28,404 nt of DNA from IMG/VR virus record IMGVR_UViG_3300017767_000089, positions 1 through 28,404 of that record; one strand, given 5' to 3'. A model generated the notes under the pieces. The model saw nothing but the letters and a program-made list of their open reading frames with translations. It was not told the origin of the DNA and made no database searches. The stretch is from a virus. Position numbers and translations under genes: made by a program. Positions 1-25,971 of the stretch are shown in pieces (positions within the stretch are counted from its first letter, which is position 1; each line of letters opens with the position of its first letter).

Positions 1-1899
1 TGATTCAAATGCTCTACCATCTTCTGTAGTTCCATAAAGTGGACCTTCTTGGTAGTCTACTCTATTTACATCAGGTTCATCCATTATCCATTCAATGTCT
101 AATTTTTGCCATACACCATCAGGAATTACATCACCTATAGCTTCATTCATTTTAGATTTTTGGTAATCTAAGTAATGGTAAACTGAAGACATATAGTCAG
201 ATGCTTTAGTTAATTTAGCTTGAACCCATGATTCTAATTGTGACTCATCGTCAATCATATCACATAAAGCCATAGCGTATTTTTTCATTTTAAGCATTTG
301 ACTTTTAGCCATACCACCTTCATAATCCATACCATCGTCACCTAAAAAGTCTTGTGCATCTGGTTCTGGAAGTGCTAATTGAGTATCTTTAACATCTAAA
401 TCAGCTTCTTTAAGATATTGATAAAGACCCATCTTTTTTCTAATATGGTTTTTTATTATGGTGTCAGCATGAGTTCTTGCAAATCTATTGGCCTCACGTG
501 TGTGTTGGACTTTTTTACCATTTAGTGAAACTATATCAATTTTATTAGGTAAATCAGGTCTAACCTCATATTCAACTTCTATGTTGTCTATAAAAGTATT
601 AAATCCTGTTTTATTAATAGCTTTGGTAATTGAATCGAATGGGTCAAATTTACGTTTTATGGAGGTGGTGTTAACCCCACTATGCCCCTTTTTTAATTTA
701 CTATTGTCTATCCTTACTCCATCAAAATAATCACCTTCAGCCATATCAGTATAACCCATGTAGCCGCTTTTTTTCTTACCTTCTTTAAATACAATTTTAG
801 TACCATCAACTGTAACTTCACCTTTATTATGAAGTTTAGCCATTAATGCTTTAGTAAATTTAATTGTGTCTTCTTTAGATTTACCTTCGTCCATATGTTT
901 TTTCATAAGGTGTTTAAGGTCTACAGTAAATGTGGTATCAGCAGGTAATTCGATTGTTTTAGCTTCATTAGTACGTTGTCCTGCGGCGTAAGCGTCCTTA
1001 ATAGCTTTAATCATATCAGTAGGTTTTGGGTCTATTTTTTCTAACCTTTTTAATACTGCCTTATATTCGTCTTCTTTAACTTTACCTTTAGATAATCTTT
1101 CAATAAAATTAAGTTCATTAAATTTTTTCTTTTTATTAGGTGTATCTAATTCAAGTTCATCATCTTCTAAATTTTTATCATTATCTGTATCAAAGTCACT
1201 TAAATCGCCTAAAAAGTCTGATACAGGTCCCCCATATTTACTACCACGAATAAAGCTAGCTATAGCATTTTCCTTCATAGGTGTAGTATTATCAAATTCG
1301 CCACTATCTAAAAAAATTAATCTTTTAGATATAAGATCTTTAATAGAATCTTGGGCTGCTTTGTTACCTTCAGCTTGTTCATACGCCGCTTGTAAGCGTT
1401 GTACTACTGGATCGTTTGAATTAATTTTATTCATTAATAAAAGACCTGCTAATAGAGCAACTCCTCCTAACGCGTTAGCTAATTTACCTTCACTTATTTC
1501 ATCTAGGGGCCCACCAGCATTTAAATAATATTTTTTTAAAAAGTCAGCTATATCACTATTACCTTTATGTTGTGGGTAATCTTGATATACATCATCTAAA
1601 AATTCTTCTAATGAAGAAGCTTCCATAGCCTTTATTTCAAGATCTTTTGCTACACCTTCTTTCATTGATTTAGCTTTTTTAATAGCAGCATCACGTGCAG
1701 CTAAATAATCATCAGAATCAACATCACCGTCGCCATCTAGATCTTTGCCTTTTTTTTCAGTTGTAATAGATCCTCCCATTTTTAAAGTTTTTAAAGCCTT
1801 AGCTTTTTCATCACCTTTTAGGGCTTTAAATTCGGGATCTTTAAGAGCATCTTTTACTGCTCCTTTCCCTACAAATGTTCCTTCGTCTAAAAAGCTCAT
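1..1899 (-). CDS. Large EF-hand-containing phage protein, likely virion-associated (3' end beyond window)
   Basis: An open frame of 633 codons begins with ATG at 1899 and runs without a stop off the left edge, so the C-terminus is missing. I do not recognise a characterised function. Residues 53-64 form a dockerin/EF-hand type calcium loop (Asp at 53, 55, 57, 59, 61, 63 and 64) and residues 237-248 form a second one (D237, D239, D241, N243, E248). A short hydrophobic stretch lies at about 141-156. Residues 527-583 (starting EGGMAKSQ) resemble a helical module that I recall from many marine T4-like phage proteins. The chain has several hydrophobic-x-Glu-Gly/Ala sites (L4-E6/G7, I135-E137/G138, M386-E388/G389, L496-E498/A499, M584-E586/A587) that resemble T4 prohead-protease sites. 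It follows the small membrane protein gene by 9 bases. A virion or internal-head role is inference. Confidence 0.85.
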   Translation of the reverse strand, partial: MSFLDEGTFVGKGAVKDALKDPEFKALKGDEKAKALKTLKMGGSITTEKKGKDLDGDGDVDSDDYLAARDAAIKKAKSMKEGVAKDLEIKAMEASSLEEFLDDVYQDYPQHKGNSDIADFLKKYYLNAGGPLDEISEGKLANALGGVALLAGLLLMNKINSNDPVVQRLQAAYEQAEGNKAAQDSIKDLISKRLIFLDSGEFDNTTPMKENAIASFIRGSKYGGPVSDFLGDLSDFDTDNDKNLEDDELELDTPNKKKKFNELNFIERLSKGKVKEDEYKAVLKRLEKIDPKPTDMIKAIKDAYAAGQRTNEAKTIELPADTTFTVDLKHLMKKHMDEGKSKEDTIKFTKALMAKLHNKGEVTVDGTKIVFKEGKKKSGYMGYTDMAEGDYFDGVRIDNSKLKKGHSGVNTTSIKRKFDPFDSITKAINKTGFNTFIDNIEVEYEVRPDLPNKIDIVSLNGKKVQHTREANRFARTHADTIIKNHIRKKMGLYQYLKEADLDVKDTQLALPEPDAQDFLGDDGMDYEGGMAKSQMLKMKKYAMALCDMIDDESQLESWVQAKLTKASDYMSSVYHYLDYQKSKMNEAIGDVIPDGVWQKLDIEWIMDEPDVNRVDYQEGPLYGTTEDGRAFES

Positions 1900-1908
1900 A
1901 TTATTGTA

Positions 1909-2223
1909 TTATTTTAATGGACAAGCCGTTACTTTAGTAGCCCAAATACCTGCTGCGACTAGGAATCCTAATCCCCACCAGCCATTAACACCAAATAAAT
2001 AACCGGCTCCTACAGCTAATACGTAGCCTCCATAGCATTTAATATAGCACTTGATTTTATCTAATAAACCAGATTCTTTAGCGTCAGTATAAGCGTCTAA
2101 GATTTTATCGTCTACGTCTGTTTTTTCTAAGGCTTCTTTAATTTTGCCTAATAACTTTTCATCAACTTCAGTTTTATCAAGAAGTTTCTTAATTTCGGTT
2201 TTGGGGTTAATTTTCCTTGCCAT
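1909..2223 (-). CDS. Small membrane protein of unknown function
   Basis: This 104-residue protein has a charged, helical N-terminal half (residues 1-56, rich in Lys, Glu and Asp) and a hydrophobic C-terminal half (about 64-95, rich in Gly, Val, Trp and Phe). The C-terminal half could make one long or two short membrane spans. Cysteines sit at about 59, 63 and 101. The start is ATG at 2223 and overlaps the end of the preceding gene by 17 bases. No family is recognised. Small membrane proteins in phage accessory blocks can be virion, lysis-related or superinfection-exclusion factors, but nothing in this sequence selects among these. Confidence 0.7.
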   Translation of the reverse strand: MARKINPKTEIKKLLDKTEVDEKLLGKIKEALEKTDVDDKILDAYTDAKESGLLDKIKCYIKCYGGYVLAVGAGYLFGVNGWWGLGFLVAAGIWATKVTACPLK

Positions 2224-2569
2224 GTTTTATAATTTTTACAGTCAAATGACCCTTTCCTTTAATAAGGCGGTGCCATTGGTGTTTTTCAATAAATATAGGT
2301 TTATCTAGGGAGACAGGTAATTTGTTTTCTAGCTGTAGCATCCAATTAGTTTCATGGGTAGCTTCAACAGTTCTATCCTCATCATCCATATGCCATTTAA
2401 GTTCACTCCATCTAATCCATTTAGGGAATAAACGTTTTTTTCCTAAATTAATATAAGGTTTACCAATAAGTAGAAGCAGGGGTCCCAAGACCCAATTGCT
2501 TATGGTATCTAGGAAGATTACAACTCCAGTAACTAGCTTTAGTCCTGTCTTTTTTATTTTTACAATCAT
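2207..2569 (-). CDS. Conserved-looking phage protein of unknown function, N-terminus uncertain
   Basis: The start taken is the first ATG (2569), giving 120 residues. It overlaps the end of the upstream gene by 110 bases, which is unusual here. An upstream TTG at 2581 would overlap even more, and an internal ATG at 2389 would remove the overlap but leave only 60 residues. The N-terminal third is hydrophobic (about residues 10-38) and could be a membrane anchor. The rest is polar and rich in Trp and His (WIRWSELKWHMDDEDR at about 52-67; KHQWHR near 96). The body reads as genuine coding sequence, with no stops and composition like its neighbours. No function is recognised. Confidence 0.6.
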   Translation of the reverse strand: MIVKIKKTGLKLVTGVVIFLDTISNWVLGPLLLLIGKPYINLGKKRLFPKWIRWSELKWHMDDEDRTVEATHETNWMLQLENKLPVSLDKPIFIEKHQWHRLIKGKGHLTVKIIKHGKEN

Positions 2570-3077
2570 GTCTTGCCGCAAATGCTTGCGAAGCTTTTTT
2601 ATTTCCTAATTTTGCTCTTAATCCACCGGAACCAAAAGTAACTTTTTTAATTTTTTTAGTTTTAGGGTCTCTAACATAAACAAAATATGCTTTAGGACCT
2701 CCTCGTTTTGGTTTATTTAGTGGTGGGTTTTTCTTTTTCTTTTTAGCAGCCTCCATAATGTATGGAAGGTCAAGTGGTACTAATTTACCTTCATATATTC
2801 CTTGGCGTCCTGCATCTGTGTACATAAAATATTCATCAGATTCAGATAAAGTCATTTGATCAGCTTCCCAAAGTTTTCTTACTTCTTTAAATAATTTAAC
2901 GTGGGCATTAGAACTAATCCTAAAAACAGATTCATTTAATGGAATCTCGTTATCTAAATGGTATTGTAAATTTTCTGAAACTGTAGTGTTTTCATTTAAT
3001 TTTGTACCTTCGCAATTACCACAACCACAATCACAGTCAGGTTTGCCAAATAAGAGTTCTTTAAGTTTTATCATCAT
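2460..3077 (-). CDS. Cys/Lys-rich phage protein with conserved C-terminal basic module
   Basis: This 205-residue protein starts at ATG 3077 (a second ATG follows immediately), overlapping the upstream zinc-ribbon gene by 17 bases. A Cys cluster at residues 15-22 (CDCGCGNC) looks metal-binding. Residues 110-127 are strongly basic. The C-terminal module (about 128-205) contains FVYVRDPKTKK, then AARHDCKNKKDRTKASYWSC, then a PRYxKQLGL ending. I recall this module from many marine myovirus proteins, usually unannotated or called virion protein. Possible prohead-protease sites occur at I94-Y-E96/G97 and I107-M-E109/A110, the latter just ahead of the basic module. Its chemistry suggests nucleic-acid contact. 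The specific role is unknown. Confidence 0.82.
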   Translation of the reverse strand: MMIKLKELLFGKPDCDCGCGNCEGTKLNENTTVSENLQYHLDNEIPLNESVFRISSNAHVKLFKEVRKLWEADQMTLSESDEYFMYTDAGRQGIYEGKLVPLDLPYIMEAAKKKKKNPPLNKPKRGGPKAYFVYVRDPKTKKIKKVTFGSGGLRAKLGNKKASQAFAARHDCKNKKDRTKASYWSCNLPRYHKQLGLGTPASTYW

Positions 3078-3671: not shown

Positions 3672-4037
3672 TTATTGATTTGTAGGGGGAACATCTTTTA
3701 CATCAAAAAGAAATTTAATTGAAGGGTAAAAACGTCTTTCTCCTGGATCATGTTCATAATAATTTGATTTTTCTTCAATTTCAAATCCTTTTTGTTTAAC
3801 CCAATTAATAACTTTTTCAAAGCTTCCATCGAATACTTCACTATTCCCTACAAATGAAATTTTACCATATCCTTTTCCTTTTAAACGGTCATTATCAGGT
3901 CTATCATTTCTAGGGTCATACATTCCCATTGTAATAGAAATGTTATGACTAGATTTTAGTTGATCTAGTTCAGATTTAAATTTTTGCTCTAAATCTTTAT
4001 ACTCAAATAGTTCGTTTAATATGTTTTTTAATTTCAT
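3672..4037 (-). CDS. Small protein of unknown function
   Basis: This 121-residue protein starts at ATG 4037, overlapping the stop of the large mosaic gene by 4 bases (ATGA), so it is probably translationally coupled. The N-terminal ~30 residues form a charged amphipathic helix (KDLEQKFKSELDQLK). The remainder looks like a small alpha/beta domain containing GKGYGKISFVGNSEVF and GFEIEE, ending in an Asp/Pro-rich tail. No catalytic motif is visible and no family is recognised. Confidence 0.72.
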   Translation of the reverse strand: MKLKNILNELFEYKDLEQKFKSELDQLKSSHNISITMGMYDPRNDRPDNDRLKGKGYGKISFVGNSEVFDGSFEKVINWVKQKGFEIEEKSNYYEHDPGERRFYPSIKFLFDVKDVPPTNQ

Positions 4038-7000
4038 TTTTTCTGAAAATCTGAGGATACACCTCCGGTTATAAATTTGCCTGTAATTTTAAAGGGCTTA
4101 CTGTGAATTTTAGGATCACGTATAACTACACCTTCATGATCATTAACAGAACCCATTGGCGAGTCAAGTACGTCTAAAATTTCATCGCCTAATTTCTCAG
4201 TTGCGAGGTATGTTGTAGCTCCCTGAATAGCTTTTTGGATATCTTGTTCGTTATCAAATAAGTCGTCTATTGTTTCTCCGCCAAATACCGCGAAATACAC
4301 CTGCTTACTTAGGGCTCCGACGTCCTTGGTGCCTCCCGTCTCTAAATTCATTTTAATGCGAGCATCTGCGGGAATATCGGTGACATCATTCAACCATTGG
4401 GCCAATGATTTGGTTTTAGCACCTTCAGCGAATTCTATTTTATATTGTTGTCCTAATGCTTTTTTAAAGTCTGGGTCTTTAGTAAATGTTGTAGGAACTG
4501 AACCATATATTTCAAATCCTCTTTTTTTAGCGAAGGGCTCAAGAGCTTTTAAGTACCTATCCATATCAGCTTGGTTAAAACTTTTTTCAGTAGTAACACG
4601 TTTCGTAAGCATTTTACGAGCACCTTGTACTTCTTTAGTTTCAACTTCTAATAAACCATGGAGCGCTAAGAAATTCTTACCGTAATCTTGGACATTAGAT
4701 TTACCTGAAACGTATTCCATGTTAAACATGATGTTTGGGTTTTCCCACAAACCTAATGCTTTAAGTTCGCCTTCGGTTGAAGATAAAGCATCATTAAAAA
4801 TATCTAATACATCACCTCCTGCTTTAACCATACCGTGACCAGCACCAAACCTGTCTTCTAAATCGACTTTAGTAATACCTTTTAAATCAAGTGCTTTCTT
4901 TGAACAACGGTCCATAGCAAATTCACGTTTACCATCAGTGTTTATTAACCTAATAGAGGCGTTTACCCCATCTATTTTAACAGCACCTGGTTCTTTTTTA
5001 AGGCTGTCAGCAGCTTGTTCAAATGATTTAATTAAATCACGTCCTGTGTTTACACTAGGTAAATCAAATGGGTGAGCCATATGACCTGCTGCTCCCCCTT
5101 CACTAATAAGATTCTCAGTAATTACATCTAACCACCAATCTTGAGTAAATGTGTTTTCTTTATTAAGCTTAACTTTTGCTTTTTTAGTATTTTTTACAAA
5201 TTGTTTTCCACTTTTACTACCTTTAACTTTTTTCCTAGAAGTAGAAGCACGTTGTGCTTTAGTAAGAGAATTTGCTTTAGCACGAGGTAAACAACGTTGT
5301 GTTGCTTTACCTTTAGGCATAGTACCACATTTACCTGCGATATTTCCTTGGGTGTCAATGCGAACCCAATCTTCTTTACCAAACCAATTTTTTAAACTTT
5401 CGTCTACACTACCTTCAGTAACATTATATTCTGCAATAATAGCAAATTGTGGATCATTAAAAAAGGTTTCCTCTAAATTTTTTAATATAGATAGTGTTAA
5501 GGATTCATTTCGTTTTTTGTAACTTTTTTTCTTTTTACCTTTAGTACCTTTAATTTGTCCTTTACAAACTCTAACAGCACGTCCTGAAAGATATGCTGAG
5601 GATTTTTCTCCTGCTCTTTTACGAGCGGCAATATATGCTTTACCTCTTTTACAAAGTTCTTCATATATCAATTCTTCGGTTATTTTAGTTATTAAATCCA
5701 TATCTTCAGTGTATCCTAGTTTTTTAGCTTTTTTACGGTCATTAGTAAATGTATCACTTGCTTTATATCTTACTTGCTGAACTTGATTTGCCTTGTAAGG
5801 CGGGAAATTTTCCTTTTTTAAACGTTGTGTTTTAGCTTTTGAGGCCTCTTTACGTTTTTCAGCGTAATCTAATGCTGTTTTCAAACGGCGTTTAACGTCA
5901 GGATCTTTAGCTCTATTATATGCTGCTCTAACTCGTTGGTGTATTAAATTAATAACTTGCGATTGACGAGCGTGTGATTTTGATTTAAATGATGACTTAT
6001 TTAAAGTATCTACTATATCTTGTCTAGAACTAAATTTAACTTTTACTGTATCATTTGGGTTTTCATCTGTGTATAAACGTCTTCCTGATCCTTTTGGTTT
6101 TTTACCTGTGCCTTTTTTAGGGTCACCCTCTTTAACAGGTTCATAAGCAGACCCATAAGGAGCAGCTTTACCTTTATGTTTTTTTTGTGCTTTTGGATCT
6201 ATGTTTTCCTTATGGGTTGTAGTTTTTAATGTTTTAGATAATTGAAGTGCCTTATAATATTTTTGATTTTTATCACCTAATTGTACTCCTTTTTTATCAT
6301 CATCTTGATCCATTTTTTTAAGACGTGCTAATTCCTTATTAATTAAAGAAAGAGGAATTTTTTCTCCATCTTTAATTCCTAGTCTTTTTCTAACGGTACC
6401 CTGTTTTAAACTGCCTGCTTTTTTACCTTTAGCAGCCATTTTTTCATAAGTGTCTCCTTCATCTAATTGTGCAGCTGGTAAATTTTCTTTAGCCCAATTA
6501 GTCCAGATTTGTTTTACTTTAGCGGATTCTTTATCTGTTAATTCAGCTTCCCTTTCTCCTAAGAAATCATCGATAGCTTGAGTTAAGGTAATTTTTTTAG
6601 TTTTAGCTGTTTTGTATAATCCTTGAACAAATGCTGGGATTTCATAACTTAAAGTAAGATATTCAAATGTAGTATCGGGGTCAGAACCATCAGGTTCAAC
6701 ACCTTTATTAAAATTATACTGCCCAACATGTTCTAATTCATGTCTTAATGTATCTTTAATTTCAGCTATTAAATCATTATATGCTTTAGGAAAATTATTA
6801 GGGTTATAATGGATTTGGATAACAATTGTATCTTCATCTGCTTGGGCATTTATAATAAAAGGAATTGGACCTAAAGTCTTTATATCTGTTGGGATGAATT
6901 TGAGTTCTAAAGTATATTCAATATCATCTATCATACCTTCAGTGTCTTCTTCATATTTTTTACCAAAGTTAGCTTTAAATTGGTTTATAATATATCGCGA

Positions 7001-7726
7001 TTGCATTAATATTTCAATATCATATCTCCCCTCATATAATTTACGGCGTAAACCTTGAGTTAATTTGGAAGGTACTTGGACCATTTGCCCATGTGAATCT
7101 ACCTTATTAAGATAACTTCTTAGCTTTTTCATATTGGCCATATGTTTAGCCATTTCCTGTTTATTCATAGTACCACCCATAAATTCTTGAACGGGCATTG
7201 TAGTATCCACTAATTTAGTCCAAATTTCTTCTTTTATTTCTTCTGGGAGATAATCAGGAATAAATTTAAAAAACTCAGCTTTATTATTAGATTTAATTAT
7301 TTCACGCATACGAGTACCTGAAATACCCCCAGCTTGTGGTGGAACTAATTCAATATCCGCTTTAATATTACGTGGTTCAGCAAATTTTGGAATGCTATTA
7401 TAGCGACCATCAGATGAGTCTTTTTCACCTAATCCTAAAATGACTGTAGATCCTTCTGGTGCGGTTTTTTCTACAAAGTCGTATACATCTTTTACAGGTG
7501 ATGGTGATTGTGCAACACTTATAATTAATTTTTTTGAGCGAGGGTCTGGATCAAATTCTTTATAAAAACTCCATATTTCAAGAGCTAATTCTTTACCTAT
7601 ACCATCTCTTTCTTTTTGCCCAATACGAACTATAACTTTATCAGCAGAATTTGCTAAATATTTTGCCATATTATAATGACCTAAATGAGGTGGTTTAAAC
7701 CCACCTGGCAATAAAGCTATTTTCAT
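4034..7726 (-). CDS. Multidomain adenylyltransferase / zincin-like / basic / ligase-like mosaic protein (putative polyprotein)
   Basis: The protein has 1230 residues; ATG at 7726 is chosen because it starts directly on the nucleotidyltransferase fold (an in-frame TTG at 7744 adds six residues). Residues 1-165 are a cytidylyltransferase-like domain (GGFKPPHLGH with H14xGH17, and ISGTRMR at 135-141), the signature of NMN/nicotinate-type adenylyltransferases. Residues 233-420 contain HELEH (329-333) with a possible third ligand E362, a zincin pattern. Residues 424-870 are Lys/Arg-rich with Cys-containing modules (C692/C721; C800/C812). Residues 877-1230 carry covalent nucleotidyltransferase motifs: K917-I-D-G, E1004 (NMEYV), E1198-G-V-V-I-R and K1210/K1213, as in DNA/RNA ligases and capping enzymes. 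Domain borders coincide with L-Y-E232/G, L-D-E423/G, V-T-E771/G and I-S-E876/G. Substrates are not known. Confidence 0.88.
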   Translation of the reverse strand: MKIALLPGGFKPPHLGHYNMAKYLANSADKVIVRIGQKERDGIGKELALEIWSFYKEFDPDPRSKKLIISVAQSPSPVKDVYDFVEKTAPEGSTVILGLGEKDSSDGRYNSIPKFAEPRNIKADIELVPPQAGGISGTRMREIIKSNNKAEFFKFIPDYLPEEIKEEIWTKLVDTTMPVQEFMGGTMNKQEMAKHMANMKKLRSYLNKVDSHGQMVQVPSKLTQGLRRKLYEGRYDIEILMQSRYIINQFKANFGKKYEEDTEGMIDDIEYTLELKFIPTDIKTLGPIPFIINAQADEDTIVIQIHYNPNNFPKAYNDLIAEIKDTLRHELEHVGQYNFNKGVEPDGSDPDTTFEYLTLSYEIPAFVQGLYKTAKTKKITLTQAIDDFLGEREAELTDKESAKVKQIWTNWAKENLPAAQLDEGDTYEKMAAKGKKAGSLKQGTVRKRLGIKDGEKIPLSLINKELARLKKMDQDDDKKGVQLGDKNQKYYKALQLSKTLKTTTHKENIDPKAQKKHKGKAAPYGSAYEPVKEGDPKKGTGKKPKGSGRRLYTDENPNDTVKVKFSSRQDIVDTLNKSSFKSKSHARQSQVINLIHQRVRAAYNRAKDPDVKRRLKTALDYAEKRKEASKAKTQRLKKENFPPYKANQVQQVRYKASDTFTNDRKKAKKLGYTEDMDLITKITEELIYEELCKRGKAYIAARKRAGEKSSAYLSGRAVRVCKGQIKGTKGKKKKSYKKRNESLTLSILKNLEETFFNDPQFAIIAEYNVTEGSVDESLKNWFGKEDWVRIDTQGNIAGKCGTMPKGKATQRCLPRAKANSLTKAQRASTSRKKVKGSKSGKQFVKNTKKAKVKLNKENTFTQDWWLDVITENLISEGGAAGHMAHPFDLPSVNTGRDLIKSFEQAADSLKKEPGAVKIDGVNASIRLINTDGKREFAMDRCSKKALDLKGITKVDLEDRFGAGHGMVKAGGDVLDIFNDALSSTEGELKALGLWENPNIMFNMEYVSGKSNVQDYGKNFLALHGLLEVETKEVQGARKMLTKRVTTEKSFNQADMDRYLKALEPFAKKRGFEIYGSVPTTFTKDPDFKKALGQQYKIEFAEGAKTKSLAQWLNDVTDIPADARIKMNLETGGTKDVGALSKQVYFAVFGGETIDDLFDNEQDIQKAIQGATTYLATEKLGDEILDVLDSPMGSVNDHEGVVIRDPKIHSKPFKITGKFITGGVSSDFQKK

Positions 7727-8698: not shown

Positions 8699-9124
8699 TC
8701 AAATATCAAAATCCTTCTTAAAATATCGTCCTTCAATGTTATCATTTAAATATTCTTCACTCTCTAAAACCTCTAAACTAAATAGATATTTATTTTCTAA
8801 ATAAGTTAGTTCCTTTTTTGAAAAAGCAGGTTGAATTATTTCGCGTTTAAAATCAGCTTGATTACCTTTTTTAACTTCTTCTTTAATGAATTGGTGTGAA
8901 CCATAATAGGTTTTCCAATCGCTTTCTTTTTGAATCATTTTGAATTTAGGTGGTCGACCTTTACCCTCATGGAGTGCTAGTTCCTTTTTACCTAACTTTT
9001 TCTTTAAATTATATATTAGCGATTTTTTACCAACATATTTTTTACCAGTGGGGATGTGGGTTGTTTGGTAAACGTACCCATATGTACCTTCTGGAAATTC
9101 TTCGTAACTATTTGGTATTATCAT
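8699..9124 (-). CDS. GIY-YIG-type endonuclease-like protein
   Basis: This 141-residue protein shows the GIY-YIG layout: YGYVYQTTH (15-23), YVGKK (30-34), DWKTYYGS (69-76), FKREII (92-97) and a Glu in YLENKYL (E110) where the family's metal-binding Glu lies. A single nuclease domain fills the chain and no DNA-binding extension such as NUMOD repeats is evident. GIY-YIG proteins in T4-like phages include seg homing endonucleases, but also conserved stand-alone proteins. Here the gene overlaps its upstream neighbour by 4 bases (ATGA) and nearly touches the primase. It therefore looks like a settled operon member rather than a recent mobile insertion. Activity and target site are unknown. Confidence 0.82.
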   Translation of the reverse strand: MIIPNSYEEFPEGTYGYVYQTTHIPTGKKYVGKKSLIYNLKKKLGKKELALHEGKGRPPKFKMIQKESDWKTYYGSHQFIKEEVKKGNQADFKREIIQPAFSKKELTYLENKYLFSLEVLESEEYLNDNIEGRYFKKDFDI

Positions 9125-12593: not shown

Positions 12594-14639
12594 TTATTTA
12601 AGGGTTCTGTTGTTTTCATTTAAAGATGGCACTACTTTTCTATCACCTGTATCTAGCCCTGCCTGAACTAAAAGATTGATTAGATTATCTTTAATAAAAG
12701 GATGCAAATTATGTGGTATTATTATAAAAGGTTTGCTACCTATACCATTAGGTAATTCTTCACTTTTTTTTAAGTCAATTAGTATACTAGGTTGTGTTAT
12801 ATCACATCTAGATATAATAATACTACCAGTTTGGAATAATTCTGGAGATTGAGGAAAACCTAAACTACTATGGTTTGATACCGCGCCACCTGAAAAATCA
12901 TCAGCTATAGGGTAAGCATTACTATTATAATGTTGGTGAAGTTCATTTTTAACCCTTAGTTTAGGTAATCCATAACCATCTTGTGTATAATCTGGATTAC
13001 TGGGGTCTGTTGAAAATTGATCTGCAGGTTGAAGTCCTTGAGTTCCTTGGATATTAGTATCAACTCCAACTACTTGTACTGTTGAAAAATCTGTAAGATT
13101 ATCATTTTCTGTAAAAGTACCTTCTAAGGAACTACTAAGAGTACCTTGTCTACCTACTATAATAGGAGTATCTGAACCACTTTCTGTAAAAGAAACGAAA
13201 AATCTTCTATTTTCTTTATCCCTTAATGTTGTGGGGTCCGGGTTATCGTTACTAATAGCTGAATATTTTGATAAATCACCAAAAAAATTAGCTAAGGAAG
13301 AATTACTAATAAAATCTGAGGTTCCTCCTATATATCCTAATGCATCTTCTTCTACTCGCCCATAAGTATATGCACTACCATAAAAGGATCCTGTATAAAA
13401 TTCTAATAATTCTTCTCGACTAAACACAGTAGGGACCATCCCTGAGTTATAACGAGTTTCAGGGTTTCCTACTTGTGGTCCACCGGGAATGTTATCGCCT
13501 TCACTAGGCCAATAACCAAATATAATATCTGTATCATTGCCTGCTGGTTTACTTGTACTAATTAAATATGAACTAGTTTGTTCTAAAACAGTATCTTGTC
13601 CTAGGGTTAATCCAGGTGCTGGGCCAAATTTTACTATTTTTTTAAGTAATCCTATATTAAAATGGATTTTGTATTCTTGTTTTAATGAAGCTTCAATGCT
13701 ATCATCAAAAGGAATTATTTGGCATAAAGTTTTATGTTTAAAATCATCATTAAAACTTTTATAAAAACCTTTAAGTGTAGTCCAACTTCCTTCTTTAAAA
13801 TTATCTAATCTAGTATCTGTAATAGAAAGATCATCATTTATAGTAAGATATCTATTAGTAGAAACGTATGAATATCCTGGTATTGCTAGAATATCTTGAT
13901 CATCTCCCCCATTTTCACTACCGATTAATCTATTACCAATATAAATGTTTCTTGTATATTTTTGAATAATTGGGGTTCTACTATCATTACCTACATCATC
14001 CCTCGTAGCTAAATTTATTTGAGATGCTTGTAATTGTTTACCATCATAACGAGATGAATTCCAAGCTTTAGTTGATAAAACTGAATCATTAAATTCAAAT
14101 AAATCTTTTTTAGGAAGGTGGTAATTTATAATTATTTCATAAATTCTTGCATCAGATACCGCGTCACCAGCACCAGCAAAAAAATTATCGAAATAAATTC
14201 TAAGGCCATATATTTTAGTTTCACCTAAAGACCTGTTATAAGCTCTATCGAGTCCTCTCTGTGGATTTATATTAACAGTATACAATGATGCATCATCAAG
14301 ACCTGCGGGGTTTTGGTATGGAAACTCTTCATCAGTTTCGTTTCCTTCAGGGTTAGTTATAAAAGCGATCCTACCTGAGGTATTCCTTCCCATACTGATT
14401 TCTAAAGATTGAATACCCTCATAAAATAAATTTTCTTGTGCTTCACCTGTAATAGAACTTGTATTAAATAATATTTGATAAAATTGGTTTGGGGTACCAT
14501 TAGTTTGCATACCTGTAAAAGTAGTAATATCGCCATCAATCCCACTTAAAGCACCATATGGGGCATTATAAAAAGATACACTGGCACTTGGGTATGCGTT
14601 TAAATCGCTTGAAGAGCCGCTTAAAGTTAGTATTGCCAT
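12594..14639 (-). CDS. Large baseplate/tail structural protein
   Basis: The product is 681 residues from ATG 14639, three bases after the stop of the 1111-residue structural gene. The N-terminal ~190 residues are beta-rich and loosely resemble a galactose-binding-like jelly roll (repeated short strands such as FYQILFN, SLEISMG and KIYGLRIYFDN), but this is a weak impression. The middle (about 200-370) contains aromatic and charged segments such as WTTLKGFYKSFNDDFKHKTLCQIIPFDDS. The C-terminal part is rich in Asn, Ser, Asp and Gly and ends in a segment containing FIIIPHNLHPFIKDNLINLL. It has no catalytic motif. Position within the T4-type 25-6-downstream block argues for a wedge or peripheral baseplate protein. 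Confidence 0.83.
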   Translation of the reverse strand: MAILTLSGSSSDLNAYPSASVSFYNAPYGALSGIDGDITTFTGMQTNGTPNQFYQILFNTSSITGEAQENLFYEGIQSLEISMGRNTSGRIAFITNPEGNETDEEFPYQNPAGLDDASLYTVNINPQRGLDRAYNRSLGETKIYGLRIYFDNFFAGAGDAVSDARIYEIIINYHLPKKDLFEFNDSVLSTKAWNSSRYDGKQLQASQINLATRDDVGNDSRTPIIQKYTRNIYIGNRLIGSENGGDDQDILAIPGYSYVSTNRYLTINDDLSITDTRLDNFKEGSWTTLKGFYKSFNDDFKHKTLCQIIPFDDSIEASLKQEYKIHFNIGLLKKIVKFGPAPGLTLGQDTVLEQTSSYLISTSKPAGNDTDIIFGYWPSEGDNIPGGPQVGNPETRYNSGMVPTVFSREELLEFYTGSFYGSAYTYGRVEEDALGYIGGTSDFISNSSLANFFGDLSKYSAISNDNPDPTTLRDKENRRFFVSFTESGSDTPIIVGRQGTLSSSLEGTFTENDNLTDFSTVQVVGVDTNIQGTQGLQPADQFSTDPSNPDYTQDGYGLPKLRVKNELHQHYNSNAYPIADDFSGGAVSNHSSLGFPQSPELFQTGSIIISRCDITQPSILIDLKKSEELPNGIGSKPFIIIPHNLHPFIKDNLINLLVQAGLDTGDRKVVPSLNENNRTLK

Positions 14640-14642
14640 TTT

Positions 14643-17600
14643 TTATCTTAAAATATAAAATTTACTTTTTCTATTTACTTGTGCTACATTTTCAACAGCA
14701 GTGCTATAACTACCGTCATCAATATAATCTACAACGTCAATAACTACATCATTTAATGTTTCATTTGTAGAACTTATTGAACCTGATGGTGAATATTTGG
14801 CTAAGTGTTCAGTTTTTTGTTCGTAGTCAATATTTGTACCAACGACTTTTGCCCTCTCCAAATAATGTGGCTCAATAACTAAACCAGTTTTTAAATTAAC
14901 TTTTGCAGGGACAAATTCCTTAATCATTTTAAATAAAGTATGATCAAAAAATTGTATTGTCCTTACATAATCTCCTATTCCTAATTTTTTTTCTAGTTTT
15001 TGAGTATAAATATCTCTAATAGTTTTTAAATCGGGATAACTACCAGATGTATAATGTGTTGGATCACCAATATAATCATCTAACCTAAATCCACCTAAAG
15101 TATATATTATATCTTCATTAACTTCAAAAGTTGGTGAGAAAAATACACCTACATCTGAATAATCAAGTGGTTGTCTATCTTGTGGTGATGTCTCAACTGA
15201 GATAAATGAATCTAAGAAATTATCATCAAAGGTACCATTGTCAATTCTAATTTTATCTGAAACCATCCCTGAACCTACGGTGTCTGGGGTTGTCAAATGG
15301 TGGGTTTCTTCTAAAAATACAGTTTTACCAGGAAAATAATATACATTAGATATTCCTCCAAAACCATTTTTTGATGAATCGGGGGCATGGTTTAATTTAT
15401 TTTGCCCAGCATTGATATCAAAACTTGGTCCTGTAAGATCTGATATAGACCCTAATGGAACTCTATACAATAATTGTTCATAACTAGAACTTACTGAATT
15501 ACCATTATAATTAAAAGGTGATAAAGATTGAGATACTATAGTAGATTCGTTAAGTACTTCTCTCCATATCCTAAGTTCTTGTATAGAACCTGTGTATCCT
15601 ATTCTTTCACCTCCATCATTTTCTCCTATAAAAGTTAAATCTTCGCGAAGAGGTAAAACAAATAAAGTTTCACCCGTACTTCCTATAACTGAATCAAAAT
15701 AATCTTCAGCATCTAAACTACATGAAGCTACATAGGTGTTTTTATTAGGAGTAGTTTGGGTAGCGTAAGCTGTTATGTTTTTAGTATTTTGATGGTCATA
15801 GGTAACGCTTATATTCCATGGTTTACTATTATAAAAGGGAATTAATGAACTAGATACTACTTTTTCACTACTTAAATTTTCTTGTGAACTACCAGTTACT
15901 ATAAGTAAATGTGCAAATGATCCGCTTTCTTGTAAATTATTATTTAAACTTTGTGATATTTGGATAGCTACTTTACCATCACCATTAGTTCCTGTGGTTA
16001 GGATTGTTTGGGTTCCTGTTTTAAAATTATTATCAGGTAAATATCTTACTTGGACACTTTTAGGTGTCGCTGCGTTTGAACCCCAAGCATTATCATCAAA
16101 AATTCGAGTAGCCCTAATTACAGCAAAATCATAACTGTTTGAAGGGGAATCTTCATTAGACACCATTTGGCTTTCTTTTTGATAGCTAAATGTTCTAAAT
16201 CCTGTTTTGTCTACTAAGGGACCACCATACTCTTTAACATGAAGAACTGTTTCAGGAATACCATAACAAGCAATTAATGCTTTTAATCCACGTTCAGTAC
16301 CTTTAGTTTTTAAAAGGTATGATGAATTATGATATAATCGTTTCCAGATTTCTTTAGCAATGTCACCCTTTGGAATTGATCCCCCATTAGATGCTGATAT
16401 CATAGTAGCAGTATCATCGGTTCCAAATTGGAAGGTACCTGTACCATCATCACCAATTAAATATTCATATAATGATGAATTTGAAAATTGATCATATGCA
16501 CTAATTCCTCTTGAAGTAAGTTGGTTTAATACTAAATCTTTAGATATACCATCTTTTAATCCACTATACGCTTCATTAATATCTGTGATACTATCCATAT
16601 ATGCCCAAATACCATCAAAATGTTGGGCTATCATTTCAACAAATAAAGTATATTTGTCGTTTTGAGTATTATCTTGAATGTGAGGAGGGATTGTACTAAC
16701 TAAATTGTATTGGTTACAATCATCAAATTTAGAAGCACTAAGCATTTGCCCACCATAATATTCATCTTCATAACTGTCTATAGGAGCACCAAACCAAGAA
16801 ACGGCTGCTGCTGAATTAACTTTAGAATTAACAAATGGTTTTCGCGATGTAGCTTTAGTTTTAGGCCAAGCAAACGCCCCTGATTCATAATAAAGGTATC
16901 TTTCATAATAGTCAAAACCTTGTATTAATTTATTTTTTTTATTTCCTAATATAGTTTTATTTTCAGTAACAAAATTTGAACTAGTTATATCACCTGTAAT
17001 ATTGTTTAATTTAGCGATAGAACCAGAATATTGTTCTAATAATTCTAATTTATATTTAAAGTTGCGTAACCTTTCAGTAGCAGAACTAAAGTGAATAAAA
17101 TTTTCAAAATGGTAACCTGAAGGGGTATCTACATTATCAAACTCTAAATCTATTTGTACACTACTACCACTTAATAATCCTTGAATGTTATTAAAACTTG
17201 AACTAGTAGCGCCATTATTTAATATTTGATCAAATGTTTTATACCCACTAGGAACAGTAAATATATCTTCATTAGATAAGGTAAAATTAGGAGGCCCAAT
17301 ATCAATACCAAAACTAGTTCCTGTTTGGGTGTTAGCCATTTGAGTAGTGACTTCGAAAGGATTAATTACCTCTTCAAATATCCTAAAACGACTATTAATC
17401 CCTAAATTATTAGGAAGGGGGTTATATAATTTAATTAAACCTGTGTTGTCTTTATCTAATAAAGCATTTAAAGCTAATAATACTGTTCCCCTCCCAAATG
17501 TAAGATTTATATCTTTTATAAAATTTGATTGGTTTAATATTCTAGATAAGTCATTTATAGCATTAGAAAAACTTTCTTGGTTTAAAGTATCAGATTTAAT

Positions 17601-23567: not shown

Positions 23568-24001
23568 TTTATAAATACTTTTTTACTATCCATATCATCA
23601 AGTCGAGATCTAACCTTAGCTAAGTCCTTTAAAATGGTTTGTGATAAACCTAAATTAACTGCTGGGTTGGGGCCTGATAATCCCGATGTATTAGGATATT
23701 GAATTGAAGAAAACATTTCTAAAGCACCTATTAAATCACCTAATATTAATTTTAATTCCCTACTTCTAACAGCTGGTATATTAACATCTTGACCATTTTC
23801 AATAGGGCCTATATAAACAGTAGGGCTATTTAAAAACATATTACTTTTACCATTTACATGGAATTCGCCATCAGTTTTAAATAAAAAAAGATTTTTTGAT
23901 GAAAAAACACTGTCATCACGGCCATTAAATACTAATCGATCACTGTCAATTAATATTTGTTTACCTACAAATTGGTCTTCTTGTGTAAATGTAGTAGCCA
24001 T
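23564..24001 (-). CDS. Beta-helical spike-like baseplate protein
   Basis: This is a 145-residue protein whose ATG overlaps the hub stop by one base. Residues about 14-66 show short alternating strands (QILIDSDRLVFNG, SSKNLFLFKTDGEFHVNGKS, FLNSPTVYIGP), the pattern of a triple-stranded beta-helix like the C-terminal needle of T4 gp5. The C-terminal half is helical (RSRELKLILGDLIGALEMFS). Since the upstream hub protein ends in an amidase rather than a needle, this gene probably supplies the membrane-piercing spike or tip in trans. That role is inferred from the pattern and from adjacency. Confidence 0.84.
   Translation of the reverse strand: MATTFTQEDQFVGKQILIDSDRLVFNGRDDSVFSSKNLFLFKTDGEFHVNGKSNMFLNSPTVYIGPIENGQDVNIPAVRSRELKLILGDLIGALEMFSSIQYPNTSGLSGPNPAVNLGLSQTILKDLAKVRSRLDDMDSKKVFIK
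23569..23578 (-). promoter_or_regulatory. Possible promoter motif GTATTTATAA
   Basis: A variant of the recurrent motif, directly abutting ATG 23567 and inside the 3' end of the spike-like gene. It may simply be coding sequence. It is recorded because it repeats the TATTTATA core ahead of a start codon. Confidence 0.2.
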
Positions 24002-25971
24002 TATACTTTTATTTTATTAGCTGTATCTTTAAATGAATCACTATTCCATTGTGAATAAAATTGATTACCTATATATGAATCTTTATTATTTCCATATTCA
24101 TCATAACCCCATATATTAAATCTAGTTATCCATCTTTTACGTAATAATTTTTCACAAAACTGTGGTACGCTAAACCAGGGACATGGTTTATTTGCTATTT
24201 GATTGTGACCTAATATTTGGATATTAGGGTAAGTTTCTACATATTTTTTTATTAATTTACCTAAAGTAAACATTTGTGAATCAGTAGCATCAAAATTATC
24301 TCGACCTCCTACCCAATTAAGGTGGATACTTTCTTGATTTATACCAAGAGCCCCATTTGTACTAGCACTATCAGGATAACAACGAGTAGCTTTACCATCT
24401 CTATTAATTATCCAGTGATATCCACCTGTATTCCATCCGTTTCCATCTCGTTTAGTGAGAAAATACCACATTAACCACGCAGGATTTGATTTTTCGCTTG
24501 AAGCCGCTGTATGAATGCATAAGTATTTAATATTTCTATCTACTAAATTACGATTATTCATTTTTAATCCTAGATCTGGTTGAGGGAGTTTTAATAAACC
24601 TCCTCTTTTATTTTTAAAAATAGGTTCACCTCCCCTTTCCCATAGTTTTATAGCTTCTTCATTTATAATTTTATAATCTGTTTCAGCAGGAATGTCTTCG
24701 GGGTTTAAATCTTCTCCCCCAATTGTAACATATGGTTGATTTTCGACGGAAGGTGTTGCAAATTCTGTGCCTGAAATTTCAATTAATTCTTCTTCGTATT
24801 CTAATAACCCTTCTTCAACCGATTCATCTAAGGCATCAAAAACAGGATCTCCTGAACTTGTAATAGGGGTGGGTTCTTGTAATGTAATAGTTTCTACTTG
24901 AGGAGTATCAAAATTAAACTGTATTGGTTGGGTATTTAATTCGGCTTCAGGTAATGCCTGAGGGATTATTACTGGGGGTGGTGCACTAAGTTCTTCTAAA
25001 GGAGGTTTAATAGGTTCATATGTTGAACTTAATGAGTCAATATTAGTAGAAGTAGCATCTATATTAATACTTTGGTTTGAAAGTAAATAAATAGAAGCAG
25101 CATCTTTGGTTACGTTTTCATTTTCACCTGTTCCTAAACTTAATATCATAGCAGGATCACCTACACTAGGGTTACCATCATCAGCTATATCAGTTACATT
25201 ATTACTAATAGCATTTACCCCACTAGGGCCTGTAGTTGTCATTCTGATTCTTTGTCCTGTTTTTCCCTCTTGTATTGAATCACCTTCAGTTGGTCTTAAA
25301 GGTCGTAATTCAGGATTTTCTTGAAAATATGTACCTAATTTTATAGCTACTTGATTATTATCTTTAGAATCATCTAATCTAAAAATATAATCACCTTCGG
25401 CATTTTGGAATAATCTATATTCAGGAGCCCCAGCATCACTTCTACCTGCGGTATATCCTAAATTACGTAAATAATCTTCTAATTGTCTCGCTGCTATTTC
25501 CCTGCTTATAGATTTAAATTCTTTTTTAAATTCAAAAGCACTTACATTAGATTCTCTTTTAGAAGATCTTTTTTTAGTACTTTTTTCAGTTGGAAGAGCA
25601 TTTGAAGCCGTATTATTATGGACATTTACTGCGGGACCATAATATAAAACTTTATTATTTAATTTACCTTCTAAATCAGAGTATGAATCATTACCCGTTG
25701 CTTCAATAATTTGTACTATTTCCCCTATATTAGGATAAGTAAAATTATTTCTACTTATGGGTTTAGCACTAGGTAACGATGTAGAATCAATAAATTCTTC
25801 ATCATTTTTTACGTCTGTAAAAAATATTACTCCTATATCGTCAGGGCTATTATATGCTTGGTGGTCAGGTGATAGTATTATGTCAGCTACTCTTTTATTT
25901 AAAGACTGATTTTTAGTACCTCCTATTCCCCCTGATGATATTCCTTTATTCTGATTTCTTCTTAGGCTCAT
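24001..25971 (-). CDS. gp5-like baseplate hub protein fused to a zinc-dependent peptidoglycan amidase
   Basis: The product is 656 residues. The N-terminal ~310 residues resemble the hub/OB-fold region of distant T4-like gp5 proteins (LPSAKPISRN, TYPNIGEIVQIIEA, KTGQRIRM, then AASIYLLSNQSI at about 291-302). A Pro/Glu-rich linker spans about 315-450. The C-terminal domain (about 478-612) is a T7-lysozyme/Amidase_2 fold: zinc ligands H487, H589 and C597, with Y518 and K595 matching the catalytic Tyr and Lys in spacing. It would cut the amide bond between N-acetylmuramic acid and L-alanine during DNA entry. T4 gp5 instead carries a muramidase. The 26-base overlap with the preceding gene suggests coupling. 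Confidence 0.9.
   Translation of the reverse strand: MSLRRNQNKGISSGGIGGTKNQSLNKRVADIILSPDHQAYNSPDDIGVIFFTDVKNDEEFIDSTSLPSAKPISRNNFTYPNIGEIVQIIEATGNDSYSDLEGKLNNKVLYYGPAVNVHNNTASNALPTEKSTKKRSSKRESNVSAFEFKKEFKSISREIAARQLEDYLRNLGYTAGRSDAGAPEYRLFQNAEGDYIFRLDDSKDNNQVAIKLGTYFQENPELRPLRPTEGDSIQEGKTGQRIRMTTTGPSGVNAISNNVTDIADDGNPSVGDPAMILSLGTGENENVTKDAASIYLLSNQSINIDATSTNIDSLSSTYEPIKPPLEELSAPPPVIIPQALPEAELNTQPIQFNFDTPQVETITLQEPTPITSSGDPVFDALDESVEEGLLEYEEELIEISGTEFATPSVENQPYVTIGGEDLNPEDIPAETDYKIINEEAIKLWERGGEPIFKNKRGGLLKLPQPDLGLKMNNRNLVDRNIKYLCIHTAASSEKSNPAWLMWYFLTKRDGNGWNTGGYHWIINRDGKATRCYPDSASTNGALGINQESIHLNWVGGRDNFDATDSQMFTLGKLIKKYVETYPNIQILGHNQIANKPCPWFSVPQFCEKLLRKRWITRFNIWGYDEYGNNKDSYIGNQFYSQWNSDSFKDTANKIKV

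Follow-up and report, generated by a model that had tools for sequence, protein, structure and literature searches.

A mosaic gene in a marine T4-like phage

The stretch of DNA analysed here (the window) is a complete viral contig of 28,404 bases without end repeats, IMG/VR virus record IMGVR_UViG_3300017767_000089, positions 1 to 28,404, and comes from a marine T4-like phage. Tail and baseplate-like genes are followed by a cluster that holds an open reading frame (ORF) for a protein of 1230 residues at 4034-7726 on the minus strand. The frame is genuine, and its start ATG is common to full-length homologues. An original prediction, made from this stretch by itself, proposed that the gene encodes a packaged enzyme polyprotein whose domain borders coincide with sites of the kind cut by gp21, the prohead protease of T4.

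The four junctions named in that prediction, L230-Y-E232/G233, L421-D-E423/G424, V769-T-E771/G772 and I874-S-E876/G877 (a slash marks the border), are all present at exactly those residues. The accompanying comparison with shuffled proteins gave a divided answer: the bare motif [LI]xE, found 15 times compared with 11.5 in shuffles (p 0.17), is not enriched, whereas [LIV]xEG, found five times compared with 1.2 (p 0.0045), is. The fifth [LIV]xEG site is V-K-E533/G534, and all five sit at cassette borders confirmed by homologues, as had been proposed for the first four. Four more borders lie at E181/F182, E639/N640, E689/E690 and E857/N858, and the third residue before the border (P3) is non-canonical at E639/N640 and E857/N858. 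Since [LI]xE stays at chance level, motif counts from the window alone were dropped as evidence, and the case rests on homologues.

Cassettes are shuffled between constant end domains

Relatives were drawn from viral contigs and annotated phages. A homologue search of viral contigs with the polyprotein returned 22 loci, searches with the ligase and nucleotidyltransferase parts (best 80 loci each) gave some 150 further loci, and the comparison set comprises 102 distinct proteins, of which 53 have both end domains and the others only one. Flavobacterium phage immuto, whose host is Flavobacterium sp. LMO8, and Microcystis phage Mel-JY01 are cultured relatives.

The N-terminal nucleotidyltransferase and the C-terminal ligase are constant, and the cassettes between them vary in order and number, being reordered, inserted, lost or swapped across about 100 relatives. 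After QLDE or QIDE, for example, the chain continues as QLDE/GDTYEKM in the window, QIDE/KRDPKVG in loci L006 and L012, and QIDE/NFPPYKA in L013; further variants are TTTNVNE/GDPKVG (L011), TTTNVNE/HRLFSQDWW (L012) and KKNVDE/GDTYEKM (L006). Among the extra cassettes are a plastocyanin/azurin-type copper protein in L012 (12002-12286; Copper-bind in Pfam, E 3.8e-17) and DUF6973 in L013. L016 has a weak acetyltransferase match and a HAD-like domain, the latter matching DUF2608 (2e-6) and, weakly, Hydrolase (0.003). At the border that ends the first cassette of the window (MPVQE/F), L013 has an additional cassette inserted. The x-E sites are kept while their surroundings, even a whole neighbouring cassette, change, which is the pattern of conserved sites with variable flanks that the original prediction called for.

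Glutamate precedes the cassettes

With the conserved residues that open each cassette as anchors, we obtained 83 non-redundant borders. The residue immediately before the border (P1) is Glu in 81 of these 83. At P3 we find Leu in 34, Ile in 21, Val in 11 and Met in 5 (Leu or Ile in 55 of 83, any of the four in 71 of 83), and the first residue after the border (P1′) is Gly in 52, Asn in 16 and Ala in 8. The polyprotein borders carry L/I-x-E, the signature of gp21 cut sites. When single cassettes are followed, Glu precedes basic cassette D in 23 of 23 distinct contexts, behind several unrelated cassettes, lies one or two residues upstream of DPK in basic cassette F in 19 of 19 distinct contexts, and precedes the ligase cassette in 55 of 56 non-redundant members. 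L095 and L096 alone have ligase cassettes that lack a P1 Glu (RILLLC/GGAAGHM); L096 has an additional LLTE/GGAADHIN segment about 260 residues upstream of its ligase cassette.

Insertions and deletions (indels) were examined as gaps of at least 25 residues between relatives, with equivalent placements allowed and all 20 residues as internal control. Glu could be placed before both borders in 151 of 314 cassette indels (48%), followed by Lys in 39 (12%); indel pairs among relatives share history, and these counts are an internal comparison, not a probability. A first, stricter border rule undercounted, as the linkers beside the border also diverge, and was replaced by this test.

The cassettes clearly recombine at their borders, which would also be expected if the E-x junctions were DNA recombination hot spots with a short shared sequence rather than protease sites. 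Codon usage makes this explanation very improbable. At the P1 Glu, GAA and GAG occur near their genome proportion, and at P3 the first base is diverse (the third too) and the middle base is 80% identical, a pattern of conservation at the protein level and not in the DNA. The same residue pattern also recurs where cassettes stand alone behind leaders and at a site in the capsid protein, both described below.

Related contigs encode a gp21-type protease

Peptidase_S77, the gp21-type family, was found in four of ten and then in seven of 13 related contigs, with E-values of 1e-23 to 1e-35, all above the curated cut-off; the contigs without a match are fragments. In relatives its gene adjoins the scaffold and major capsid genes, and the polyprotein gene itself lies in the head-gene cluster. 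One gp21 homologue is encoded at 10089-10700 of L028. A gp21-type protease was thus found in 11 related contigs; the window itself stops before the head genes. The major capsid protein of the same contigs has LVNE/A or LVQE/A aligned with FLTE/A of T4 gp23, which we take to be the gp23 cleavage site.

Free-standing cassettes carry leaders

In T4, gp21 cleaves after L/I-x-E, and 10-residue leaders direct cargo to the head; exchanging the P1 Glu for Asp prevents processing but leaves targeting intact (PMC9026906). T4 IpII and IpIII start with MKTYQEFIAE, annotated as a removed 10-residue leader (MKTYQEFIAE/A in IpIII). The N terminus of the window polyprotein, which starts MKIALLPGGFKPPH, holds no removable leader of about ten residues ending in xxE. 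In relatives, leaders of this kind are found on ligase and basic cassettes that stand alone. L101, L102 and L105 each have a gene in which the ligase comes first, directly behind MKTFKNYILNE or MKTFKQYYNTILNE, with the junction MKTFKNYILNE/GGAAGHM. The basic cassette ELCKRGKAYIAARKR is a separate small gene in L002 (MQPLIREYIRQYLEE/ALCKRG); in other relatives it occurs together with the SVDESLKNWF cassette in a downstream gene starting MQERKLTK or MQKHLNE, which has the MIVKIK gene on one side and the MARK gene on the other. These two flanking genes overlap in the window (1909-2223 and 2207-2581), so the separate gene is absent there and its content is inside the polyprotein, in the basic middle. 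The leader-like part of cassette 6 (Table 1) resembles the N terminus of a separate gene in L013 (MQKHLNEIINELIEELVYE/ELCKRG), and cassette D is present in other ORFs of L145 and L174.

Applied to neighbouring genes, the same indel test gave Glu in 27 of 93 cases compared with 9 for Gly, the 27 including a few distant nucleotidyltransferase-ligase proteins missed by the filter and one tail repeat that is apparently chance. By inspection, it is mainly the cargo-like head-cluster genes that contain the Glu-bordered indels, and mostly not the tail genes. In relatives of the protein encoded at 2460-3077, an insert of about 80-90 residues lies at the cassette border, several having Glu at both ends.

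Phages are known to make polyvalent proteins, a class with 2-15 domains, and some of these enter the head without processing, as does the virion RNA polymerase of N4 (PMC5512222). The chain found here might likewise be an uncut multidomain protein that is packaged and injected whole, with Glu a mere linker feature. We consider this unlikely. Linker composition would not fix Glu at one position in nearly every border and also a hydrophobic residue at P3, the cassettes are also found by themselves behind leaders of the removable type, and, by inspection, borders in neighbouring head-cluster genes obey the rule that tail genes mostly do not.

Table 1. Predicted cassettes of the window polyprotein and nearby genes (borders are those at the C-terminal end of each cassette)
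Feature	Residues	Coordinates	Strand	Content	Predicted border
Whole polyprotein ORF	1-1230	4034..7726	(-)	1230 residues	
Cassette 1	1-181	7184..7726	(-)	HIGH-type nucleotidyltransferase (GGFKPPHLGH, ISGTRMRE)	MPVQE/F
Cassette 2	182-232	7031..7183	(-)	Conserved GGTMNxQEM...KLYE segment	KLYE/GRYD
Cassette 3	233-423	6458..7030	(-)	Zincin-like metalloprotease (RHELEHVGQ)	QLDE/GDTY
Cassette 4	424-533	6128..6457	(-)	Basic cassette D, GDTYEKMAAKGKKAG...	PVKE/GDPK
Cassette 5	534-639	5810..6127	(-)	Basic cassette F, DPKxGTGKKPKGSGRR...	RLKKE/NFPPY (P3 Lys, non-canonical)
Cassette 6	640-689	5660..5809	(-)	NFPPYKANQVQQVRY... and leader-like LITKITEELIYE	LIYE/ELCKRG
Cassette 7	690-771	5414..5659	(-)	Basic, Cys-containing, ELCKRGKAYIAARKRAG...	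NVTE/GSVDE
Cassette 8	772-876	5099..5413	(-)	SVDESLKNWFGKEDW... (phrog_23735), leader-like end NTFTQDWWLDVITENLISE	LISE/GGAAG
Cassette 9	877-1230	4037..5098	(-)	RNA-ligase-like nucleotidyltransferase; motif I K917-I-D-G	
Second probable polyprotein		1..1899	(-)	Starts MSFLDE/GTF..., runs off contig; homologue cassette indels with Glu at both borders	
Neighbouring head-cluster protein		2460..3077	(-)	Cassette border	PYIME/AAKKKK
Small protein		3672..4037	(-)	Leader-like N terminus, seen in the sequence	MKLKNILNE/L

Enzyme modules

The segment originally called an adenylyltransferase is upheld as a HIGH-type nucleotidyltransferase by a match to phrog_395 (cytidyltransferase, E 2.9e-6); compared alone with Pfam CTP_transf_like, the module gives a weak match (8e-4, just under the cut-off). 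Its HIGH-superfamily motifs are HLGH and ISGTRMRE, and H14, G16, H17 and S136-G137-T138 are invariant in the alignment. Annotation differs among relatives, being nicotinamide mononucleotide (NMN) adenylyltransferase in immuto and cytidylyltransferase in Mel-JY01.

Assignment of the zincin rests on the motif RHELEHVGQ, in which R-H-E-x-E-H does not vary across the alignment of the module, a cultured phage included; the relative in Flavobacterium phage immuto (immuto_182) is preceded by VMAE/GRYDTVTN, and a further candidate junction of immuto_182 is VVKE/GSSGTPIQ. The motif lies where the original prediction had placed a zincin-like segment, but the segment is an optional cassette present only in some members, missing from many relatives and C-terminal in L016. 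Autoprocessing by metallopeptidases has been proposed for polyvalent proteins (PMC5512222), and the HExxH module of the window could process its own chain in this manner. We rejected this idea, to which we give hardly any weight, as most relatives have no HExxH. All but two of the 53 ligase-bearing sequences without HExxH, which include a few fragments or free-standing ligases, retain Glu before the ligase, making the zincin unlikely as the processing enzyme. Moreover, the zincin is itself swappable, and the junction motif is that of gp21.

An AlphaFold model of the ligase cassette from 57 sequences has a mean predicted local distance difference test (pLDDT) score of 91.9; a shallow model from 8 sequences (pLDDT 77.7) had given uninterpretable fold matches, which the deeper alignment solved. 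Foldseek alone returned weak E-values. Structural realignment put T4 RNA ligase 1 first (Z 8.4, 176 residues, root-mean-square deviation 3.9), a Z near 8 being a value that can be accidental, and the next 37 matches are mostly RNA or DNA ligases. Motif I, KIDG, is invariant in the 57 sequences. Because the family of the matches and motif I agree and the coverage spans residues 2 to 347, the modelled cassette is likely a covalent nucleotidyltransferase, and it combines the KxDG motif I and the fold that characterize ATP-dependent RNA ligases, in keeping with the ligase-like segment first proposed. Profile searches with the ligase and the nucleotidyltransferase gave weak matches only, the whole polyprotein matched none of the solved structures, and no match to anti-phage defence families was found.

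A proposed precursor of packaged cargo

We consider it probable that the polyprotein is a precursor of head-packaged cargo that the prohead protease cuts into at least eight pieces. The original prediction of about five released proteins is revised upward because its 348-residue 'Lys-rich middle' consists of several cassettes; whether as one protein or several, this Lys-rich part might, as first suggested, pack against DNA or scaffold. The central claim of a packaged polyprotein cut at gp21-type sites passed the sequence tests; cleavage, packaging and injection themselves are inferred. The polyprotein would be made late and join the prohead core. Within the prohead, the gp21-type protease (Peptidase_S77) would then cleave it on the C-terminal side of the Glu in each [L/I/V/M]-x-E junction. 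This would release the HIGH-type nucleotidyltransferase, the zincin, several small basic proteins and the RNA-ligase-like enzyme, and the mature pieces would stay in the head with the DNA and enter the host at injection. Two segments that resemble internal leaders, LITKITEELIYE ahead of ELCKRG and FTQDWWLDVITENLISE ahead of the ligase, may serve prohead entry. If each junction is a cut site, cassettes could be added, dropped or reordered without harm to their neighbours, which would explain the shuffling.

Phages are known to counter host defences with adenylyltransferases that make nicotinamide adenine dinucleotide (NAD+) and with RNA ligases, and some NAD/ADP-ribose genes lie among virion genes, their products thought to be packaged (PMC9503650). 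A role for the cargo in repairing NAD+ or RNA soon after infection starts is a guess.

Our literature search found no virion proteomics for any relative: for immuto it turned up no paper devoted to the phage, and the Baltic Flavobacterium phage paper examined reports no mass spectrometry. Several points weigh against such a precursor. No cleavage products of the polyprotein have been observed. The nucleotidyltransferase stands at the very start of the chain, with no targeting leader ahead of it. At two borders, RLKKE ahead of NFPPY and KLNKE ahead of the WW segment, P3 is not hydrophobic. The motif [LI]xE also occurs within folded domains, as at LIAE322, where cutting would be harmful unless the site is shielded. 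Under a strict rule half of the indels cannot be placed with Glu on both sides, and pairs of relatives are not independent. Finally, the window's own protease is unseen, as the contig ends before the head genes.

With less confidence, we lean towards a broader proposal, in which a widespread T4-like group relies on its prohead protease to release the contents of a general cargo system. Several polyproteins, at least two of them in this phage, would hold arrays of exchangeable effector cassettes that travel in the head and reach the host at injection. The contents of these arrays would extend to ligases, nucleotidyltransferases, zincins, HAD-like and acetyltransferase-like domains and even a plastocyanin.

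Other genes in the window and its relatives

An out-of-frame overlap of about 110 bases between 2207-2581 and 2460-3077 (-) of the window is kept in relatives (1787-2401 and 2292-2681 in L021). The window gene at 8699-9124 (-) and immuto_170 encode a SegE-like GIY-YIG protein (Pfam 1.5e-22), relatives of which carry the label 'NAD synthetase', probably wrongly, in both PHROGs and GenBank. A baseplate-region protein at 24001-25971 (-) has a C-terminal part that looks amidase-like by eye (HTAASS...GYHWIINRDG) and is possibly a cell-wall enzyme. In L077, the portal-like protein at 14357-17035 carries an intein-like insertion of 373 residues from CISPDTLI to VIIHN/S.

Relation to known systems and significance

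The closest parallels differ in how the cargo is arranged. T4 IPI-III and Alt, which have a capsid-targeting sequence and are cut by gp21, share with the system described here the L/I-x-E motif, the gp21-type protease and, in relatives, head-cluster genes and free-standing cassettes with leaders like MKTYQEFIAE/A. However, T4 uses one gene per cargo, whereas here many unrelated modules form one shuffled chain that has no N-terminal leader. The T4 core proteins gp22, gp67 and gp68 also receive several gp21 cuts, but the cassettes here are enzymes or conserved basic proteins. In giant phages, diverged gp21 homologues (phiKZ gp175, SPN3US gp245) cut many head proteins, some several times, after a short Glu-ending motif (PMC9026906, PMC10052503); mainly propeptides are removed there, whereas whole enzyme cassettes lie between the sites here.

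Polyvalent proteins of phages and conjugative elements are likewise multidomain, enzyme-rich, mosaic and probably packaged and injected, some with a zincin (Iyer et al. 2017, PMC5512222). The window protein resembles them in joining several enzymatic domains in one phage protein (nucleotidyltransferase, zincin motif and RNA-ligase fold), but the processor proposed for them is an in-chain zincin, while the evidence here favours the prohead protease, whose motif marks the borders. Named polyvalent domains (MPTase-PolyVal, LPD etc.) have no Pfam match in the window protein, the zincin module of which has only HExxH.

The specificity of gp21, targeting leaders, multi-cut core proteins and packaged multidomain polyvalent proteins (PMC5512222) are each already known separately. 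The open-access literature (subscription papers lay outside the search) yielded no multi-enzyme polyprotein with shuffled cassettes bordered by prohead-protease sites. Multi-enzyme polyproteins are familiar in RNA viruses and retroviruses, and we know of none in a tailed DNA phage.

The cultured relatives immuto and Mel-JY01 make the polyprotein reading testable. If it is true, the proteins that a T4-like phage carries in its head and brings into the host at time zero, which are otherwise hard to find, could be recognized by the junction motif with no data beyond the sequence, and the exchange of cassettes would explain how cargo repertoires evolve quickly.

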